DNA of 42,553 bases from an uncultured Lachnospiraceae bacterium (GTDB lineage Bacteria; Bacillota; Clostridia; Lachnospirales; Lachnospiraceae): NCBI GenBank assembly GCA_947630295.1, contig CANRGZ010000006.1, forward strand, positions 1 through 42,553. Direction: 5' to 3'. The notes under the pieces were generated by a model. That model worked only from the letters and a program-made list of their open reading frames with translations, searched no databases and had not been told where the DNA came from. The position numbers were made by a program, and so were the translations under genes. Positions 3,417 through 42,553 of this stretch are shown here, in pieces. The stretch's first letter is position 1; every line of letters begins with the position of its first letter.

Positions 3417-3716
3417 TACAACTGAAAAGAAACGCGAAGAAGTGGAGTAGTAGACAGGATGGCTGCTGTGCAGAGAAATGTCGGTTGGTGCAAGACATCA
3501 GGGCTGTCGGTTGAACTGGCCATGGAGCGGCTGGGATGAAACAAAAAAGTAGTCGCAGACGGGAACTCCCGTTACAGAGGAAAGGAGTGATGGCTCCTTA
3601 AGGTGCATCCTGAAAAGAACGGGATGAAGAAGAGTGGTACCGCGGAAGAAACAGATGTTTGCTCTTTCGTCTCTTATAGTGATACAGATCACGAAGAGGC
3701 GGAAGAGTTTTTTTTT
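3417..3716 (+). promoter_or_regulatory. T-box leader (tRNA-sensing), probably tRNA-Leu
   Basis: This long leader upstream of ilvB carries the conserved T-box sequence AGTGGTACCGCGG at 3633-3645, whose TGGT (3635-3638) would pair with the uncharged tRNA acceptor end. The distal stem I signature GGTTGGTGCAAGACAT is near 3483-3498, and AGTGGAGTAGTAGA is near the base of stem I. The 3' side of the specifier loop reads GAA-CTG-G, so the specifier codon is read as CUG (3516-3518), a leucine codon. When tRNA-Leu is charged, the downstream terminator should form; when it is uncharged, the operon is transcribed. The specifier assignment is from pattern alone. Confidence 0.85.
3662..3716 (+). terminator. 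T-box attenuator terminator
   Basis: The arm CTCTTTCGTCTCTT (3662-3675) pairs with AAGAGGCGGAAGAG (3694-3707) with G-U wobbles. Nine T residues follow (3708-3716). It lies just after the T-box sequence, the position expected for the regulated terminator. Confidence 0.85.
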
Positions 3717-3792: not shown

Positions 3793-5499
3793 ATGCAGAA
3801 ACAGAACAATGAAACCATGTCCGGTGCGCAGATTGTCATTGAGACCCTGATCGAACAGGGCGTTACGGATGTTTTCGGCTATCCGGGCGGACAGGTGCTC
3901 AATATTTATGACGAGCTTTACAAGGCACAGGATCGGATCAACCATATCCTGACGGCCCACGAACAAGGGGCTTCCCACGCGGCCGACGGCTATGCCCGGG
4001 TGACGGGCAAGGTGGGGGTTGTCATTGCTACCTCCGGCCCCGGCGCCACCAATCTGGTGACAGGCATTGCCACGGCGATGCTGGATTCCATCCCCATGGT
4101 AGCCATTACCGGAAATGTGCCGACCTCCCTGATCGGCAGGGACAGTTTTCAGGAAATCAATATCACGGGTGTCACGATCCCCATCACAAAGCACAACTTT
4201 TTTGTCAGCGACGTCAGAAAGCTGGCGGATACGATCCGGGAAGCCTTTCAGATCGCGAAATCCGGCCGCCCCGGGCCTGTGCTGGTGGATATTCCCAAGG
4301 ATGTGCAGACGGCGGAGTGCGTTTTCGAAAGACGCGGCGTGGTGGATGCTTATCCCCAGGAAATCGTAGACGACAGTGAAATCGACAGGGCGGTGGAACT
4401 GATCCGGGAAGCCAAACGTCCCTACATTTATATCGGCGGCGGCGCCGCAGGGGCGGGACTGGCGCAGGATGTCATCACCCTGGCGGAAAAGATCGACGCG
4501 TATATCGGCTGTACCTTTATGGGGCTTTCCGCCATTCCCAGCAGCCATCCCAGATTTTTAGGAATGCAGGGCATGCATGGACATTATGCCTCCTCCCTGG
4601 CCAACAAAGACGCGGATCTGGTCATTGGCCTGGGCGTGCGCTTCAGCGACCGTGCCACCGGCAATGTGGCCAAGTATTCCAAAAAGGCAAAAATCATACA
4701 GATCGATGCAGATCTGGCGGAAATCAATAAAAACGTAAGAGTCGAACTGGGCCTGGTAGGCGATATCCGCTCTTCCTTCAAACGGATCGTGGAGCGCTGC
4801 GAGGCAGCGGAGCATCCCCAGTGGCGGCAGCAGGTGGAAGCGCTGAAGGCAGAAGAACAGGCCATCAGCGACGCGGCGGAAGCAAAGGCAGGCGATGCCA
4901 TGACCCCGAAGAAAATCTTCGATGTGATCAACGCGGTCAAGGATGACGACACCATTATCGCCACCGACGTGGGACAGCATCAGATGTGGGCGGCCCAGTA
5001 TATCGATTTTGAAAAGACCAGGCGGATCGCTTCCAGCGGCGGTCTGGGTACCATGGGTTACGGACTGGGGGCGGCCATCGGCGCGCAGATCGCGGACGGC
5101 GCCAAAACCGTACTGATCACCGGCGACGGCAGCTTCGGCATGAATCTGAATGAACTGGCCACAGCCGCCAGCTATCAGACCCCGGTGATTATCGTCATAC
5201 TGAACAACGGCGTACTGGGTATGGTCCGGCAGTGGCAGACCCTGTTTTACGGCAAGCGTTATTCCAATACCGTACTGGATCGGAAGACGGATTTCGTGAA
5301 GCTGGGAGAAGCCTTCGGCATCAAATCCACACGGGTTTCCACCATTGCGGAATTTCAGAAGGCGTTTGAAGAGGCCTATGCATTTAACGGCCCGTTTTTG
5401 ATCGATACGCTGATCGACAAGGATGAATTTGTCCTGCCCATGATGCCGCCGGGCGGATCCGTGGAGGAAATCATTACTGCAAAGGAACAGGAGGCGTAA
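3793..5499 (+). CDS. ilvB: Acetolactate synthase, large (catalytic) subunit
   Basis: This 568-aa protein condenses two pyruvates, or pyruvate with 2-oxobutyrate, to acetohydroxy acids. It is the first common step of Val/Leu/Ile synthesis and depends on thiamine diphosphate, Mg and FAD. The catalytic glutamate lies in [14 protein letters not shown] near residue 56. The ThDP/Mg motif GDGSFGMN is at about 443-450 and ends at NN near 472. [10 protein letters not shown] is also typical. It is the first gene after the T-box. The start ATG at 3793 follows GGAGAG, and a nearby ATG at 3788 is out of frame. The small subunit ilvN starts 4 bp after its stop. Length is normal for the family. Confidence 0.96.
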
Positions 5500-11603: not shown

Positions 11604-13283
11604 ATGATAAACGCTTCAAAGTATACCAAACAGTTTTATCCCGTGCAGAATCCCACCCGCAGGTGGGCTGCAAAGACCAGTATCGATCATCCGCCGGTAT
11701 GGTGTTCGGTGGATCTTCGGGACGGCAACCAGTCTCTGATCATCCCCATGGGACTGGAAGAAAAGATTGAATTTTTCAAGCTGCTGGTAAAAATCGGATT
11801 CAAGGAGATCGAAATCGGATTTCCCGCGGCTTCCGAGACGGAATACAATTTCCTGCGGACCCTGATCCATGAAGGACTGATTCCGGACGATGTGACGATC
11901 CAGGTGCTGACCCAGGCGCGGGAGCATATCATCCGCAAAACTTTTGAAGCGCTGGAAGGATGCAAAAACGCGATCGTACATCTGTACAATTCCACTTCGG
12001 TGGCGCAGCGCGAACAGGTATTTAAAAAATCCAAAGAAGAAATCATCAAAATCGCTACGGATGGCGCTGAGTTGTTTGACCGGATCGCCTCCGAAAGCGG
12101 AACCAGTTACCGGTATGAGTATTCACCGGAATCCTTTACCGGAACCGAGCCGGAATTTGCACTGGAAATCTGCAACGCGGTGCTGGACGTCTGGAAACCC
12201 ACGCCGGAGCGGAAGGTGATTATCAATCTGCCGGTGACGGTGGAGCTTTCTTCGCCCCATGTTTACGCCGATCAGATCGAGTATATGTGCGATCATCTGA
12301 AATACCGGGATTCCGTGGTGGTATCGCTGCATCCTCACAATGACCGGGGCTGCGCGGTGGCGGATTCCGAACTGGGCCTTTTGGCCGGAGCGGACCGGAT
12401 CGAAGGCACGCTGTTCGGCAACGGAGAACGTACCGGCAACGTGGATATCATTACGCTGGCCATGAATATGTATATGCAGGGCGTGGAACCAAATCTAGAT
12501 TTCACCGACATGCCTTCCATTGTCAATCTGTATGAACGGGTGACGGGGATGCAGGTCAGCGACCGGCAGCCTTACGCCGGAAAACTGGTCTTTGCGGCAT
12601 TTTCCGGTTCCCATCAGGACGCCATTGCCAAGGGCATGCGCTGGCGGGAAGAAAAACACTGCGACACCTGGACCGTACCTTATCTGCCCATTGATCCGAC
12701 AGATGTGGGCCGGGAGTACGAGACCGATGTCATCCGCATCAATTCCCAGTCGGGCAAGGGCGGCATCGGCTATCTGCTGGAGCACAAGTTCGGCTATATC
12801 CTGCCGGTGGCCATGCGGGAAGACGTTGGGTATACGGTCAAAAATGTGTCCGACCACGCCCATGCGGAGCTTTCACCGGAGGAAGTACTGGATGTATTCC
12901 GTGATACGTACGTCAACATCAACAATCATATCCGGCTGATTGATTATCATTTTGTACGGACACCGGCGATCAAGGTTATGCTGACCGTGGAGATCGACGG
13001 AGAAGTCAAAGAGCTGACGGCGGGCGGCAACGGCCGTCTGGATGCGGTCAGCAATGCGGTGAAGCGGCAGCTGGGCATCGGATTTTCCGATCTGACTTAC
13101 GAGGAACATGCGCTGAACAAAGGATCTTCTTCCCAGGCCATTACCTACGTCAGCATTACGCTGTCAAACGGCCGGAAAGTCTGGGGCGCAGGCATCCACG
13201 ACGACATCATTGCATCGTCCATCAACGCGCTGTTTTCCGCAATAAATCGAGGTATTGAGGAGGAAGGCTTATGCGAAGCATAA
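11604..13283 (+). CDS. leuA: 2-isopropylmalate synthase (long LeuA type)
   Basis: This 559-aa enzyme condenses acetyl-CoA with 2-oxoisovalerate, the first committed step to leucine. The divalent metal and catalytic region appears as WCSVDLRDGNQSL (about 33-45) and SLHPHNDRG (about 243-251), with GNGERTGNVD following. The C-terminal regulatory domain (about 430-559) should bind leucine for feedback inhibition. The N-terminal sequence and length resemble the long LeuA type known from Actinobacteria and some Clostridia rather than the ~510-aa E. coli type. The last ~8 residues (EEGLCEA) and the stop codon lie inside repeat copy 2, so the native C-terminus has been replaced or extended by that element. 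Confidence 0.94.
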   Translation: MINASKYTKQFYPVQNPTRRWAAKTSIDHPPVWCSVDLRDGNQSLIIPMGLEEKIEFFKLLVKIGFKEIEIGFPAASETEYNFLRTLIHEGLIPDDVTIQVLTQAREHIIRKTFEALEGCKNAIVHLYNSTSVAQREQVFKKSKEEIIKIATDGAELFDRIASESGTSYRYEYSPESFTGTEPEFALEICNAVLDVWKPTPERKVIINLPVTVELSSPHVYADQIEYMCDHLKYRDSVVVSLHPHNDRGCAVADSELGLLAGADRIEGTLFGNGERTGNVDIITLAMNMYMQGVEPNLDFTDMPSIVNLYERVTGMQVSDRQPYAGKLVFAAFSGSHQDAIAKGMRWREEKHCDTWTVPYLPIDPTDVGREYETDVIRINSQSGKGGIGYLLEHKFGYILPVAMREDVGYTVKNVSDHAHAELSPEEVLDVFRDTYVNINNHIRLIDYHFVRTPAIKVMLTVEIDGEVKELTAGGNGRLDAVSNAVKRQLGIGFSDLTYEEHALNKGSSSQAITYVSITLSNGRKVWGAGIHDDIIASSINALFSAINRGIEEEGLCEA

Positions 13284-13341
13284 CCAGGAATGCCTTCCGA
13301 CGATTTGGCAGGGGCGCTTTTCAAGCGCGCGTGCCGTTACC
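13259..13341 (+). repeat. Dispersed structured repeat, copy 2 (leuA-leuC junction)
   Basis: This 83-bp copy has the same boundaries as copy 1 and differs from it at scattered positions. It encodes the end of leuA in one frame. In another frame, from ATG 13271, it opens a 34-codon ORF reaching 13375 that resembles the one in copy 1. The hairpin arms GCGCTT/AAGCGC are intact around a changed loop (TTC instead of CCC). Confidence 0.85.
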
Positions 13342-13350
13342 GAATAAAAA

Positions 13351-28221: not shown

Positions 28222-28301
28222 AACGGATGAGAGTAAAATGAGAAGAAAATGAACTTTTTATGAAATTTACAACTTATACATCATGTGATATCATAGAAAG
28301 A

Positions 28302-28381
28302 GGAGGAAGGCTTATGCAAAGCATAATTTTAAATGCCATCCGACGATTTGGCAGGGGCGCCTCGGGCGCGCATGCCACTAC
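28302..28381 (+). repeat. Dispersed structured repeat, copy 3
   Basis: This 80-bp copy starts GGAGGAAGGCTTATGC and ends ATGCCACTAC. Compared with copies 1 and 2, the second hairpin changes both arms together: GCGCTT/AAGCGC becomes GCGCC/GGCGC around TCG. Pairing is therefore kept. The outer GGAAGGC arm faces GCCATCC here, with one mismatch. It lies 20 bp before the yifB start. Confidence 0.75.
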
Positions 28382-28401
28382 ATTTTTTACAAGGAGAAAG
28401 T

Positions 28402-37566: not shown

Positions 37567-37856
37567 GTACGTTGGCGAAGTTTTAAATCTGAGAGCCAAT
37601 AAAGCCAGTAAATACAAGGGTTTCAAAGACTTTCGATTGATTATCGTGAATTGCGTAAAGTACCGTATTCTACCGTAACTTGCCATAAAATATCAGGCTG
37701 TTTTGAGTAAGATTTGGGTACAAAAATGCGTAAAACCGAAATCAAATCCCTTCGGAGAAGTTTACGCAACTGTGACTTGAAATGTTTAACACCGACACAA
37801 ACGAATATCAATAGCGTAAATTGGCAACTACTTATACAAACGTAATAGTAAATATT
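37567..37856. other. Junction region with repeated GCGTAAA motifs; no gene seen
   Basis: No credible gene was found between tsf and the membrane protein leader. The heptamer GCGTAAA occurs at 37653-37659, 37728-37734 and 37814-37820, and in inverse orientation at 37761-37767. Short repeated heptamers beside a junction resemble arm-type binding sites of tyrosine integrases. A direct GTACCGTA/CTACCGTA pair is near 37659-37677. An attachment-site function is inference. Confidence 0.4.
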
Positions 37857-37943: not shown

Positions 37944-38417
37944 ATGAAAGTCTTTAAACGCTCGTTACCTACATTAATATGGATATTGCTTATGATAATA
38001 GGCATTATTTTCCTATCAAATTCTGGTGCAAGTTATGGTCAATATAGAGAAGAAGCATGGCATATTGTCCGACCGATATTTATGGGTTCTGCTTTATTTT
38101 GGGTTGTGGCTATTTTGATGATTATACAAACTATCATTTTGAATATGAAATCCATTAAATACCATGCTGTAATAGAAAGCATATTACTGGTTGGTATTAT
38201 CTGTGCCACTGTTTTCTTGTTTAAAAATTTTCTTGATTTTACAGCAAGTTATGAAACGGTCACAAAAATGACTGACTCAACAGAAGCAGATTTAAATATA
38301 TTAGCACACATATTTTCCTATCGTAAAACCATTTTGTTATATACCGTCTTATCTATTGGAGCAGCGGCAGCTAATGTAGCATTAGATTTTATCGTAAAAA
38401 AGAGGGATATAGCCTGA
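37944..38417 (+). CDS. Hypothetical four-helix membrane protein, 157 aa
   Basis: The protein is not recognised. About four hydrophobic helices are visible: residues ~8-27 (LPTLIWILLMIIGIIFLS), ~46-66 (ALFWVVAILMIIQTIIL), ~75-95 (VIESILLVGIICATVFLF) and ~128-150. The N-terminus is positive (MKVFKR) and the C-terminus ends KKRDIA. The ATG at 37944 follows AAGGAGG at 37931-37937; the frame is open further upstream through the hairpin, but without a ribosome binding site. It is the only plus-strand gene of the AT-rich element and converges on the DGR operon. A cargo or superinfection-type function is possible but unsupported. Confidence 0.6.
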   Translation: MKVFKRSLPTLIWILLMIIGIIFLSNSGASYGQYREEAWHIVRPIFMGSALFWVVAILMIIQTIILNMKSIKYHAVIESILLVGIICATVFLFKNFLDFTASYETVTKMTDSTEADLNILAHIFSYRKTILLYTVLSIGAAAANVALDFIVKKRDIA

Positions 38418-38427
38418 ACTATATCCC
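38396..38427 (-). terminator. Terminator of the DGR transcript
   Basis: TATATCCC (38420-38427) and GGGATATA (38404-38411) form an 8-bp stem with an 8-base loop. On the minus strand it is followed by CTCTTTTTTAC, a good T-run. It overlaps the end of the plus-strand membrane protein gene. Confidence 0.75.
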
Positions 38428-38437
38428 CCTAAAATTA

Positions 38438-38668
38438 TTATTCAATTTCTTCTTTAAGAGTTGCTAATTCTTCTTGAATAGCATTAATTTCATCCCTTAC
38501 TGCTTGTCTTTGTGTATGAAGCTCATTTACATCGTATGGGGATTCTAACCCTAACAGTTGACACTCCATACATTTAGAAATTTTCCAATCACCAATAGGT
38601 GAAGTAGTGCAACTAAGCATTGCCTGTAAATCTCTAATTCTCTGTTCTTTTTCTTGATAGGTGTTCAT
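38438..38668 (-). CDS. Small coiled-coil protein overlapping the RT gene, 76 aa
   Basis: The ATG at 38668 is preceded by GGGAGAG (about 38677-38683) and lies 35 bp inside the end of the reverse transcriptase gene. The protein starts MNTYQEKEQRIRDLQ, has the segment TTSPIGDWKISKCMECQ with a CxxC pair, and ends in a heptad-like helix (RDEINAIQEELATLKEE). It resembles small proteins seen in gut phage tail regions, from memory only. It could be a DGR accessory or a phage structural or assembly protein. The upstream in-frame ATG at 38749 would put 27 more residues inside RT and lacks a ribosome binding site. Confidence 0.65.
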   Translation of the reverse strand: MNTYQEKEQRIRDLQAMLSCTTSPIGDWKISKCMECQLLGLESPYDVNELHTQRQAVRDEINAIQEELATLKEEIE

Positions 38669-39866
38669 AATAGTCTCTCCCTTCAATAAATGGTTTAATA
38701 AATAAATCATTATACAATTTATCCATTCTTTTTTGTGTTTGATATGCACTGTAATGTTTTAAACTACCACGCCATGAACCATATGCCTCTGAAATATCTT
38801 GATAAGACATTTTACCTTCATCAAGAAGTTGTCTAAACTTCTTTAATTTTCTACGCTCTCTTGTGATAGCCTTTTTATTCATCCGCTTAATTACCTTTCC
38901 AGTGCTTGTAAAAGTATATCTTACTTTTAAAAATGTAAATCCTTTTGATATTTTTACAATCTGAGTTTTCTTTTGATTAATGAATATACCATATTCTTTA
39001 CAAATGTTATTAATATCTAATAATAATTGTTGCAAATATTCTTTACTTGGATGAATAATATATGTATCATCCATATATCGTCCATAATATTTTAGACCTT
39101 TTACAATCTTACAATAATTATCTATACGGGTTGGATAAAGTAGACCTGATACCTGAGAAATTTGACTACCAATTCCGATAGATTTCTCCATATATCTCTT
39201 ACCAGTTAATAATCTTTTATCAATCTTTGCATATTCTAAAGCGTTAAATACCGTAGTAAGACAATATTTATATTCTTCATCATTCATATAAGAAACATCA
39301 ACTTTAAAAGCATTAATGATTTTACGAATAAACTCTAAAGTTTCCTTGTCTTTTAATCTCTTTTCAAATTCTTCCATTAATTTATCATGACGAACATTAT
39401 CAAAAAATTTAGTAAAATCAATTAATAGTATATAACCTTCATTAGTTCTGTATTGACGATAATATTTATGTAAATGTGTAACAAGTCTATTTCTTGAAAA
39501 TTCAACACCTTTATTTTTTAAAGAAGCTCCATTATCATAGATAAAATATTTTGTAAAAAATGGCGTGAGAATATTATCACATAGTGACCTCAATACAACT
39601 CTATCATAAATATGAATAGCTTTTATTTCTCTCATTCTTCCTCGTTCACATAGAGGAAATTCATTAAACGGTAATTGTTCATAAGTATTAGATAAAATTT
39701 CATCTTGGGATTTGCTTAAATTACGTAACAAATTCATTTCATATCGTTGCACAGACTCTTTCCATATACTTCCCTTTTTACATTTCTGAAAAGCATCGTA
39801 TAGTTTATTTCCATCATAAAAACTACTAAAATCTGTGTTATTTTTAATACTATCTTTCATTATCAT
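38634..39866 (-). CDS. DGR reverse transcriptase
   Basis: This 410-aa reverse transcriptase should copy the TR RNA into cDNA with errors at adenines. The catalytic aspartates are in LLIDFTKFFDNVRH (about 147-160) and YGRYMDDTYII (about 261-271; YMDD at 264-267). The segment IGIGSQISQ (about 230-238) carries the xGxxxSQ motif that distinguishes DGR reverse transcriptases from group II intron and retron enzymes. The C-terminus ends in a thumb-like helical, basic region without maturase, endonuclease or HNH domains. GAGG lies about ten bases before the ATG at 39866. It follows the TR, in the order target-avd-TR-RT known from the Bordetella phage DGR. Confidence 0.95.
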   Translation of the reverse strand: MIMKDSIKNNTDFSSFYDGNKLYDAFQKCKKGSIWKESVQRYEMNLLRNLSKSQDEILSNTYEQLPFNEFPLCERGRMREIKAIHIYDRVVLRSLCDNILTPFFTKYFIYDNGASLKNKGVEFSRNRLVTHLHKYYRQYRTNEGYILLIDFTKFFDNVRHDKLMEEFEKRLKDKETLEFIRKIINAFKVDVSYMNDEEYKYCLTTVFNALEYAKIDKRLLTGKRYMEKSIGIGSQISQVSGLLYPTRIDNYCKIVKGLKYYGRYMDDTYIIHPSKEYLQQLLLDINNICKEYGIFINQKKTQIVKISKGFTFLKVRYTFTSTGKVIKRMNKKAITRERRKLKKFRQLLDEGKMSYQDISEAYGSWRGSLKHYSAYQTQKRMDKLYNDLFIKPFIEGRDYYEHLSRKRTEN

Positions 39867-40141
39867 TTATCATTTACCTCGTTTCTAACACCAACTGACG
39901 TATCAGGATGTATCAAGATAATCATTTTCCTTGCGGAAGGACAAAGCTCTCCTTTCCTTAACCGTATATCGGCACGTAGCCTACACATAGTATACGGTAA
40001 CGAAATCGGGCGCACACCGTTACTGTTAGAAGCGTTGTTGTTGTTGGAATTACCATTGTTGTTGCAATTCGCAAAATTCGTAGCAGAGGCGTATACAGAG
40101 CTTACCCTAAAGAAAAAGCAGAACATAGTTATGTCCTGCAA
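39867..40141 (-). ncRNA. DGR template RNA region (contains TR)
   Basis: This 275-bp non-coding gap between the Avd-like gene and RT contains the TR and ~135 bases downstream of it in the transcript sense. In known DGRs that downstream spacer folds, binds RT and Avd and primes cDNA synthesis. Visible structure includes inverted repeats ACCGTATA (39961-39968)/TATACGGT (39991-39998) and GGAAGGA (39935-39941) with TCCTTTCC (39950-39957). RNA ends are not determinable from sequence. Confidence 0.75.
40003..40091 (-). repeat. DGR template repeat (TR), 89 bp
   Basis: Read on the minus strand it contains twelve AAC/AAT codon-like triplets in register with the VR frame. It aligns without gaps to VR at 40824-40912 (offset 821). 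Eleven positions differ, and every one is an A in the template sense. Beyond both ends the two sequences diverge at non-A positions as well, which sets the boundaries. Confidence 0.95.
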
Positions 40142-40711
40142 TTAACTTTCTTTATTATTTCCTGTTTGCTTTGTTTTTGATTCTTCTTGGATTCTTTTTA
40201 AAATACGATTGTCACTTTTTCTCCATCCTTTTAATAACGCAATTTCTTTTTCTATCATTCTCGTATATTGTAGATATTTATTAATATCTGTTGGAATAAC
40301 TGAAATAATATACTGCATCTCTTGAAGTAATTGTTCACAATTACCAATAGCACGATTTTGAAAATTTCTTCGCTCAAAGAACTCCGATTCAAAAACAGGA
40401 TAGATAGTATTGGCTTGTGTAATGTTCATGATTATACTATGTAAAATATTTAGAATATTATTTCTCATTTTATCAATAAGCCAGTCAGGATATTCATCTA
40501 ATATATATAATTGACCATATTTTTTGACCAACTCATTGAATACTATTTTATCTTCTTCGGACATATTTTTAGTAAGAGCGGTAGCATTTCTCACTTTATC
40601 TTTAATACCAAAATTTCTTAATAAGAGAATTGTTAAATCTCTTCGTAAAACAATAGCATTACGATAAAACTCCAAATCTGATAAATTTCTTTTATTTTTT
40701 AAAACACTCAT
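40142..40711 (-). CDS. avd: Avd-like accessory protein of the DGR
   Basis: This 189-aa, strongly helical and basic protein contains LSDLEFYRNAIVLRRDL near residues 10-26, typical of the Avd/four-helix-bundle family. That family forms a pentameric barrel, binds the template RNA and RT, and is required for mutagenic retrohoming. It is longer than the ~128-aa Bordetella phage Avd; the extra length is mainly a C-terminal basic tail (KRIQEESKTKQTGNNKES). It lies between the VR gene and the TR. AAGGAAGG precedes the ATG at 40711. Assignment rests on position and partial sequence resemblance. Confidence 0.8.
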   Translation of the reverse strand: MSVLKNKRNLSDLEFYRNAIVLRRDLTILLLRNFGIKDKVRNATALTKNMSEEDKIVFNELVKKYGQLYILDEYPDWLIDKMRNNILNILHSIIMNITQANTIYPVFESEFFERRNFQNRAIGNCEQLLQEMQYIISVIPTDINKYLQYTRMIEKEIALLKGWRKSDNRILKRIQEESKTKQTGNNKES

Positions 40712-40776
40712 ATAATAATAAACCTTCCTTTACCTTTTATTATTTTATAAACAATCCATTCTTTGTTATTAAAAAC

Positions 40777-40803
40777 ATCCCGACCCCACAAGGGGGTCGG
40801 GAT
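40777..40803 (-). terminator. GC-rich hairpin downstream of VR (terminator and possible DGR target hairpin)
   Basis: ATCCCGACCCC (40777-40787) and GGGGTCGGGAT (40793-40803) form an 11-bp perfect stem with a 5-base loop, starting seven bases after the VR gene stop. On the minus strand it is followed by GTTTTTAA, so it can terminate. In studied DGRs a hairpin or cruciform just beyond VR increases retrohoming. Confidence 0.85.
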
Positions 40804-40809
40804 TTAAGA

Positions 40810-41775
40810 TTAACCGATTAAGAAAAGCGGGCGCACACCGTAACTGTTAGAAGCGTCGTCGTTGCCGGAATGACCATTGCCGTCGCAAATCGCAAAATTC
40901 GTAGCAGAGGCGACAGCAGATAACCAATACCATTGTCTACCACCATCGCCCGTTCCACCTAAACCACAAACTTTTGCAGTTGGGTCTAATCTAAATAATG
41001 GAAGTTGTAAATTTGCCGCTCCAATATCATAAAATGAAGAACTAAATACTGTTGAACCATATAATTGTACTTCGGACATAAGGCGTAATTGTATACTGAC
41101 CCATTCCCATCCAGAAGAATAACCAGTAAAATTAGCACCAGCCATAGAAACACCCTGTGCAGACTGTTTATGTGTTAATAAATCTTTGAATGATAATAAA
41201 TGATTTTGTAACGCAGTCTGTAAAGCAGTCGCATATATGGGTAATACAAGTTGATTCATATCGCTACCTTCATATGCAGCCTTTTGTAAATCTGCGGAAG
41301 TTTGTTTTACAGAACCTACAGGATTATCAGGATTTGCCGATACACCAGTTGTATTTGTACTATTCATTTTTGCAGTTGCGGTAAAACAATTTTTTGGTAC
41401 AACTACTGCATGATGTTTTACTAATGATGTATCACCGTTCTTTAAATACATATCAAAACCAGCAAGGACACAACGAACGGTTTCATTCTCAGTAAATGTA
41501 GTATTAATTGTTACATCAAAATAATCACCAATAAATAAATCAGCGAATTTTCCACTATTAATCATTTCACAAATTTGAGTGATAGTATAAACATTATTTA
41601 AATTTTTCCCTCTAAAAATTGCATTATGCGCCGCTGCTGTTTGAGGAATTAATGTTGCAAGAGCATCCGCATATCTAATTGATTTTGTACCGCCAGCGGT
41701 TTCAATTAAAAGTAAATCTTCAGCAGATAAAGAAGTTACTTTAGCAATATCACTTATTTTTGTATATGTAGCCAT
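40810..41775 (-). CDS. DGR variable protein, probable phage receptor-binding/tail protein
   Basis: In this 321-aa protein the first ~200 residues look like a phage structural region; it starts MATYTKISDIAKVTSLSAED. The C-terminal part (about 225-321) resembles the C-type-lectin-like fold used by DGR targets, with SEVQLYGSTVF, LPLFRLDP, QWYWLSAVASATNF and NSYGVRPLFL. Residues ~288-318 are encoded by VR. Nine codons differ from TR, giving I, D, G, H, G, D, D, Y and L where the template would give N (eight positions) or I (one). AAGGAGG lies before the ATG at 41775 and overlaps the end of the upstream tail-fibre gene. Adhesion to a host surface is the expected role, by analogy to Mtd. Confidence 0.88.
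   Translation of the reverse strand: MATYTKISDIAKVTSLSAEDLLLIETAGGTKSIRYADALATLIPQTAAAHNAIFRGKNLNNVYTITQICEMINSGKFADLFIGDYFDVTINTTFTENETVRCVLAGFDMYLKNGDTSLVKHHAVVVPKNCFTATAKMNSTNTTGVSANPDNPVGSVKQTSADLQKAAYEGSDMNQLVLPIYATALQTALQNHLLSFKDLLTHKQSAQGVSMAGANFTGYSSGWEWVSIQLRLMSEVQLYGSTVFSSSFYDIGAANLQLPLFRLDPTAKVCGLGGTGDGGRQWYWLSAVASATNFAICDGNGHSGNDDASNSYGVRPLFLIG
40824..40912 (-). repeat. DGR variable repeat (VR), 89 bp
   Basis: This is the gapless partner of TR, located in the last ~105 bp of the target gene and ending 11 bases before its stop codon. Its promoter-distal end (40828-40840, GTGTGCGCCCG in the sense direction) is GC-rich and unchanged, as expected of the initiation-of-mutagenic-homing site. 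Confidence 0.95.
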
Positions 41776-41788
41776 ATCTATGACCTCC

Positions 41789-42553
41789 TTACGTTGTAAT
41801 TAATTTAAAACTTGAACTAATAATAGCTCCATCATCAGTTGTAATAAGTATATTGTTATTTGTGCAAATTCCAAAAATGGCTTCTTTTTTAACAAGCATT
41901 CGTTCTAACATTGATACATCTTCTTGTAAAGTTTCAACTTTATTTTGCAAATCAGCAATAGCTTCTAATAAAGAATCCATTGTGCCAGCAAATACATCCC
42001 ACTTTCCATCAGTTGTATAATAAACATTTGTACCATCAGTATATGTATGTCCAGCACCTTCTTTAAAATTTGTATCTGTAATAAATCCATCACTAATGTT
42101 ATACATATAACCAGCAACTTTACTATCGGCATTTAAAGCAAAAAATTCTTTAGAAGTAATAGTACCTCTAGGTATAATTGCTCCATTTAGTGATTGAACA
42201 AGTTGTAAAGCTAATTCATAATAATATTTTGAATTATCTGTATCATCATTAACTCTTGTTTCACCACCTGTACCAACTGCATAACTTTTTGAAAGATTTG
42301 AATAATCTTTAGCATTTTTCTCCGATGTAGCAGCAGCATTTTGTGATTTCTTTGCTTCATTTTCAGAAGTCTTAGCATTGTTTTCACTTGTTTTTGCGGC
42401 AGCAGCAGATTTTTCACTTGCATCCGCAGAGTCAGCAGAATCATCAGCACTATTTTTAGAATCATTTGCTGATTGTGCAGCAGCATTTTGTGATTTCTTT
42501 GCTTCATTTTCAGAAGTCTTAGCATTGTTTTCACTTGTTTTTGCGGCAGCAGC
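41789..42553 (-). CDS. Phage tail-fibre-like protein, 5' partial
   Basis: The frame is open from the right window edge and 254 residues are visible. The first ~90 are a low-complexity Ala/Ser/Asn/Lys/Glu coiled-coil-like repeat (AKTSENEAKKSQNAAA and similar), typical of tail fibre shafts. A globular part follows (GGETRVNDDTDNSKYYYELA, GAIIPRGTITSKEFFALN), then a short coiled coil (LLEAIADLQNKVETLQEDVS) and a C-terminal domain ending SSSFKLITT. It lies 13 bp upstream of the DGR target gene, so the two are probably made together and may assemble in one tail structure. The starts near 42106 are internal methionines. Confidence 0.8.
   Translation of the reverse strand, partial: AAAAKTSENNAKTSENEAKKSQNAAAQSANDSKNSADDSADSADASEKSAAAAKTSENNAKTSENEAKKSQNAAATSEKNAKDYSNLSKSYAVGTGGETRVNDDTDNSKYYYELALQLVQSLNGAIIPRGTITSKEFFALNADSKVAGYMYNISDGFITDTNFKEGAGHTYTDGTNVYYTTDGKWDVFAGTMDSLLEAIADLQNKVETLQEDVSMLERMLVKKEAIFGICTNNNILITTDDGAIISSSFKLITT
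42330..42553 (-). repeat. 147-bp tandem repeat unit in the tail-fibre gene
   Basis: The 77 bp at 42330-42406 are repeated exactly at 42477-42553, an offset of 147 bp (49 codons). The second copy runs into the window edge, so the number of units is unknown. Near-perfect nucleotide identity suggests recent duplication or ongoing recombination. Confidence 0.85.

Follow-up and report, generated by a model that had tools for sequence, protein, structure and literature searches.

A diversity-generating retroelement with a covarying spacer RNA, probably at the edge of a prophage behind tsf in a Lachnospiraceae genome

Few of the mutation machines known in microbes are as targeted as diversity-generating retroelements (DGRs). 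Tens of thousands of DGR cassettes are on record, and the one described here is one more (PMC8144416). In the Bordetella phage BPP-1, whose parts follow the order mtd-avd-TR-brt, efficient retrohoming depends on a hairpin of this kind, through the structure of its stem and not through the stem sequence (PMC3240598). The BPP-1 spacer recruits RT-Avd and primes the cDNA (PMC12875486). In the Faecalibacterium prophages Roos, Pioen and Lelie, the VR lies at the C-terminus of DUF6273 proteins, and DGR activity has been seen in reads for Roos and Pioen (PMC11792537).

We have analysed a stretch of 42,553 nucleotides (the window), which is a whole contig (C6) of an uncultured, gut-type Lachnospiraceae bacterium. 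The contig breaks off within the tail-fibre gene that precedes the target, so the remainder of the prophage lies outside our view. In transcript order, the minus strand carries a target gene with a 3' VR, a hairpin, a long Avd gene, the TR, a structured spacer, the RT, a small phage gene and a terminator. Every part that the first-pass annotation had named for 38438-41775 was found at its place. The features are as follows.

41789-42553, minus: tail-fibre gene preceding the target, truncated where the contig stops
40810-41775, minus: target gene, 321 aa, with a predicted C-type-lectin-like C-terminal domain; its last ~35 codons are the VR
40824-40913, minus: VR core, 12 changes relative to the TR, all at TR adenines
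40828-40839, minus: constant GGTGTGCGCCCG stretch at the 3' end of VR and TR, the putative IMH position (role by analogy with BPP-1, PMC3240598)
40777-40803, minus: DNA hairpin/cruciform element 3' of the target stop codon, also terminator-like
40142-40711, minus: long-form Avd, 189 aa; an insertion separates helices 1 and 2 of its four-helix bundle
40118-40139, minus: short hairpin with a T-run between avd and TR, terminator-like
40003-40092, minus: TR core, intergenic, rich in AAC/AAT codons
39868-39961, minus: structured spacer RNA from TR to RT, with covariation across relatives
38634-39866, minus: DGR reverse transcriptase, 410 aa, with YMDD and GSQISQ
38438-38668, minus: small coiled-coil phage protein (phrog_17180), overlapping the RT end by 35 nt; not DGR-specific
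38401-38430, minus: terminator-like hairpin that closes the operon, just beyond 38438-41775
37567-37830, strand not assigned: edge of the inserted element directly 3' of the tsf stop codon, with four GCGTAAA/TTTACGC repeats

The architecture is that of the Bordetella phage cassette, as had been proposed: the part order equals that of BPP-1, the TR is intergenic between avd and RT, a hairpin follows the stop codon, the VR ends a receptor-binding-type gene, and a small ORF overlaps the RT end. However, the BPP-1 RT sits on a distant branch, its Avd has 128 aa against 189 aa here, its bbp4 is by inspection unrelated to the small ORF of the window, and our spacer RNA model has no match in BPP-1. 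The DGR of Roseburia phage Shimadzu shares a P2-like tail module, a tail fibre target, Avd and RT, and its small ORF behind the RT is weakly similar to ours, whereas its RT is 39% identical, its Avd is short (~136 aa) and the spacer model finds no match. The Faecalibacterium DGRs also come from gut Clostridia prophages with DUF6273 targets, though the DUF6273 match of the window target is weak and their RTs are only ~27% identical. The nearest relative that we have found is the IMG/VR contig 3300006213_000868 (L007), where RT, Avd and target are 69%, 67% and 55% identical, respectively. It keeps the same part order and has P2-like baseplate genes upstream, but it lacks a phrog_17180-type small gene behind the RT and its spacer has an insertion.

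We consider that the best explanation, with a probability of about 0.95, is a complete DGR on the border of a prophage that has integrated at the tsf 3' end; the DGR would act by mutagenic retrohoming into the target VR. The completeness claimed by the first-pass annotation is upheld by the A-only TR/VR mismatches, the RT clade, the Avd profile and fold, the lectin-like target and the recurring hairpin. Direct support comes from the parts themselves, these mismatches, the RT membership, the folds, the hairpin, the covariation and the activity traces in relatives; the retrohoming steps, docking on the spacer and a function in attachment would follow what is described for BPP-1. Overall, this is a known kind of system, and the features that appear new are the spacer RNA family, which has no Rfam match, and the long Avd of the clade.

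TR and VR align over a gapless 90-bp core with 12 mismatches, the first on the fuzzy 5' edge of the repeat, and all 12 fall at TR adenines (7 A>G, 3 A>T, 2 A>C). The criterion applied for a DGR was at least 75% of mismatches at TR adenines. As A makes up 28 of the 90 TR bases, random placement would give 12 of 12 with a probability of ~1e-7. Nine VR codons are altered, mostly from AAC/AAT to other codons and never to a stop, and the target frame stays open. There is one TR and one VR in the whole genome (97% complete), and A-only pairs are present in 33 related loci in addition to the window. One viral contig (L017) has two VRs, at 1052-1144 and 4933-5027, that are served by one TR, i.e., a two-target DGR.

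VR and TR diverge just 3' of the constant stretch. This IMH-like end and a hairpin/cruciform after the VR are both expected of a DGR, and by comparison with the BPP-1 work (PMC3240598) both are present here. The hairpin starts 6 nt after the stop codon and has an 11-bp stem and a 5-nt loop, with a DNA folding energy of z = -5.3. Nearly all relatives carry a GC-rich stem after the VR, mostly of 6-11 bp with a loop of 4-6 nt, and the stem sequences differ. A further terminator-like hairpin (40118-40139) lies inside the predicted template transcript and could separate the mRNA from the template RNA.

We have looked for traces of activity in relatives. Three viral contigs (L023, L024 and L032) have RTs that are 98.7-99.8% identical, and they show 14-19 VR differences over 95 positions, with 13-17 of these at TR A, compared with 6-9 differences in 370 positions of flank and 2 differences in the TR. 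Further VR pairs agree, with 14 of 14 differences at A for L014/L015 and 12 of 12 for L022/L026. These contigs and the like pairs belong to the same RT family as the window, their RTs being about 44-49% identical to its RT. Because related VRs differ almost solely at TR adenines while the RTs are nearly identical, the comparison supports the view that the family is active, in near relatives and not directly for the window copy. The TR of the window had no match in the viral contigs, and no near-identical strain or close copy was found.

On the other hand, the window copy might be a DGR by descent that is now defunct, its VR changes being old traces in a decaying prophage edge. We regard this as unlikely. 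There is indeed no second copy showing present change, and the contig shows just one prophage end. However, the frames of RT, Avd and target are open, YMDD and GxxxSQ are kept, in agreement with the first impression that the parts are intact, the hairpin and the spacer fold are kept, and the VR changes have left the target readable.

The contig is chromosomal, with ilv-leu genes, groEL, dnaG, rpoD, topA, rpsB and tsf (names from reading the sequences), and these host genes would fit a Clostridia-type genome. Homology to two congeners ends at the tsf stop codon; both congeners have a tsf terminator, and the window is without one. A second genome from the host's order has this small gene, together with lysis genes, facing tsf at the same place, with no adjacent RT. 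Since phage genes lie at the tsf 3' end in this second genome too, this is apparently a site that such phages use for insertion, and the GCGTAAA/TTTACGC repeats are possibly integrase arm sites. The phage-like segment in a Clostridia chromosome is in this way borne out, and can be specified as an insertion at the tsf 3' end. It is quite improbable that misassembly attached the phage part to the host contig: the GC content does fall from ~52% to ~31% and the genome is a draft MAG of 121 contigs, but the break lies exactly at the stop codon where the two congeners keep their own terminator, phage late genes face tsf at the same place in the other genome, and the GCGTAAA repeats mark the edge. 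Between tsf and the cassette, and convergent with the latter, a low-GC gene (37944-38417) encodes a 157-aa membrane protein with no family match.

The RT of the window is recognised by the phage RT profile PHROG_1423 (E 1e-75). Among solved structures, the BPP-1 DGR RT (8ub7) is closest to it in sequence. In a maximum-likelihood tree of 53 RTs it falls within the DGR group (BPP-1, VP58.5, BalMu-1, Toutatis, Roos and two plasmid RTs with annotated avd) with support 100/98, apart from four group II and six retron RTs; the program flagged long branches in this tree. Its motif 4 is GSQISQ (GxxxSQ), where four group II and most retron controls have SP instead. The group II profile TIGR04416 gives 83 of 300 bits, far under the curated cut-off, and St85 (NF038233), the sole retron profile scoring, 18 of 235 bits; neither class describes this RT. 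The check by profile and tree, which the first-pass annotation had suggested, thus groups it with DGR RTs and not with retrons or group II introns. That it is an RT of another class (retron, group II intron or defence RT) beside a chance duplication has next to no standing, as the weak scores to group II and defence RTs are those that all bacterial RTs give and lie far under the cut-offs, and the highly supported tree and the adenine bias refute it.

The same genome holds a second, different DGR-type RT (44% identical, GDQLSQ) on contig C1 (L045, 1-3022, cut at the 5' end). It lies at the contig edge, and behind it come small phage genes (one of which reads as holin-like), an excisionase and an integrase, which means that the genome carries two prophages with DGR-type RTs. 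An Avd for this RT was not found elsewhere in the genome.

An Avd accessory protein, a four-helix bundle, is another mark of a DGR. The gene between target and TR matches PHROG_3206 (Avd of DGR) with E 9e-9, and its predicted model (pLDDT 83) can be superposed on BPP-1 Avd (4dwl) over all 107 residues of the latter (Z 14.4, rmsd 1.9 A). The model also aligns with the S23/IVP family, which Avd resembles. Since helical bundles score high in general, sequence profile and position carry equal weight here. In the clade of the window, an insertion separates the first two helices, in comparison with the short Avds (L030, L068).

The VR lies at the 3' end of a C-type-lectin-like target gene, which is also expected of a DGR. 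Compared with solved folds by a second aligner, the C-terminal part of the target finds 9qa6 (Z 11.8), Legionella Lcl (8q4e, Z 6.4) and then many C-type lectins, a moderate support for a C-type-lectin-like domain; the first 40 residues of the model are of low confidence. Foldseek gave no significant E-value for the target and Avd models, and the fold support comes from the second aligner. Because the upstream gene is tail-fibre-like and L007 has P2-like baseplate/tail genes before its target, the target likely acts at the tail tip.

The cassette content had been read correctly, and can be refined in that the last, 75-aa gene (38438-38668) is a phage gene. In the window and in 26 fetched loci it either overlaps the end of the RT gene or lies right beside it, and it has the motif IGDWK..K.YEA.L..PYD..EL...RQ.VRD.INELQ. 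We have rejected it as a DGR-specific fourth gene, because the same phrog_17180 domain sits elsewhere beside tail or lysis genes without an adjacent RT, or is fused to another small protein. A tblastn search of the small ORF in phages gave no match. In two loci (L070, L071), a CLec/FGE-like gene is followed by a helical Avd-like gene, with a phrog_17180 domain directly upstream; these are probably further DGRs of another type.

The earlier reading of the parts stands as listed, and it had missed that the spacer between TR and RT is a structured RNA. From an alignment of 21 loci made without guidance, RNAalifold derives 18 pairs in the spacer, and 17 of them have changes on both sides. Across 15 loci, 94% of cells pair, and two-sided changes occur in 89 cells versus 29 in shuffles (0 of 500 reach 89), a large margin, though the structure was derived from the sequences used in the test, which is a bias in its favour. 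When the partner is slid by 1-3 columns, only 16-24 two-sided cells are left. Single-sequence folding of the window TR plus spacer is no stabler than shuffles (z -0.86), and the fold is visible by alignment alone.

In 46 fetched records, the RNA model finds 31 places at E < 0.01, all between TR and RT. Searched blind, by RNA alone, in 391 genomes of the class, it returns the window and three other loci, each directly before an RT of ~32% identity to that of the window and behind a TR with A-only VR differences. That is, the covariation-backed model picks out DGRs by RNA alone, as a search tool independent of the RT. BPP-1, Shimadzu and more distant phage DGRs give no match at E < 0.01, and an Rfam search of the cassette found no family. 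The starting point of the BPP-1 RT is set by the spacer RNA, and by analogy the window spacer may have the same recruiting and priming role; the model offers a testable map of a docking RNA outside that single well-studied case. More tentatively, the ~95-nt spacer could be an undescribed RNA family common to DGRs down to 32% RT identity, a docking and priming RNA for RT and long Avd with the Avd insertion as its partner, which we think possible but rather doubtful.

By the BPP-1 model, the spacer of the TR-containing transcript would fold into a docking structure for RT and Avd, and the RT would copy the TR into cDNA with misincorporation opposite adenines. The cDNA would then take the place of the VR in the 3' part of the target gene, with the constant VR 3' end (IMH) and the hairpin behind the stop codon as guides. 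This would yield a tail-associated protein of lectin fold whose binding surface is varied and most likely serves attachment to the host.

Structured RNAs are also present in the host part of the window, namely a T-box leader (3428-3677) and three GA-cis RNAs (935-1025, 13255-13345 and 28298-28386).
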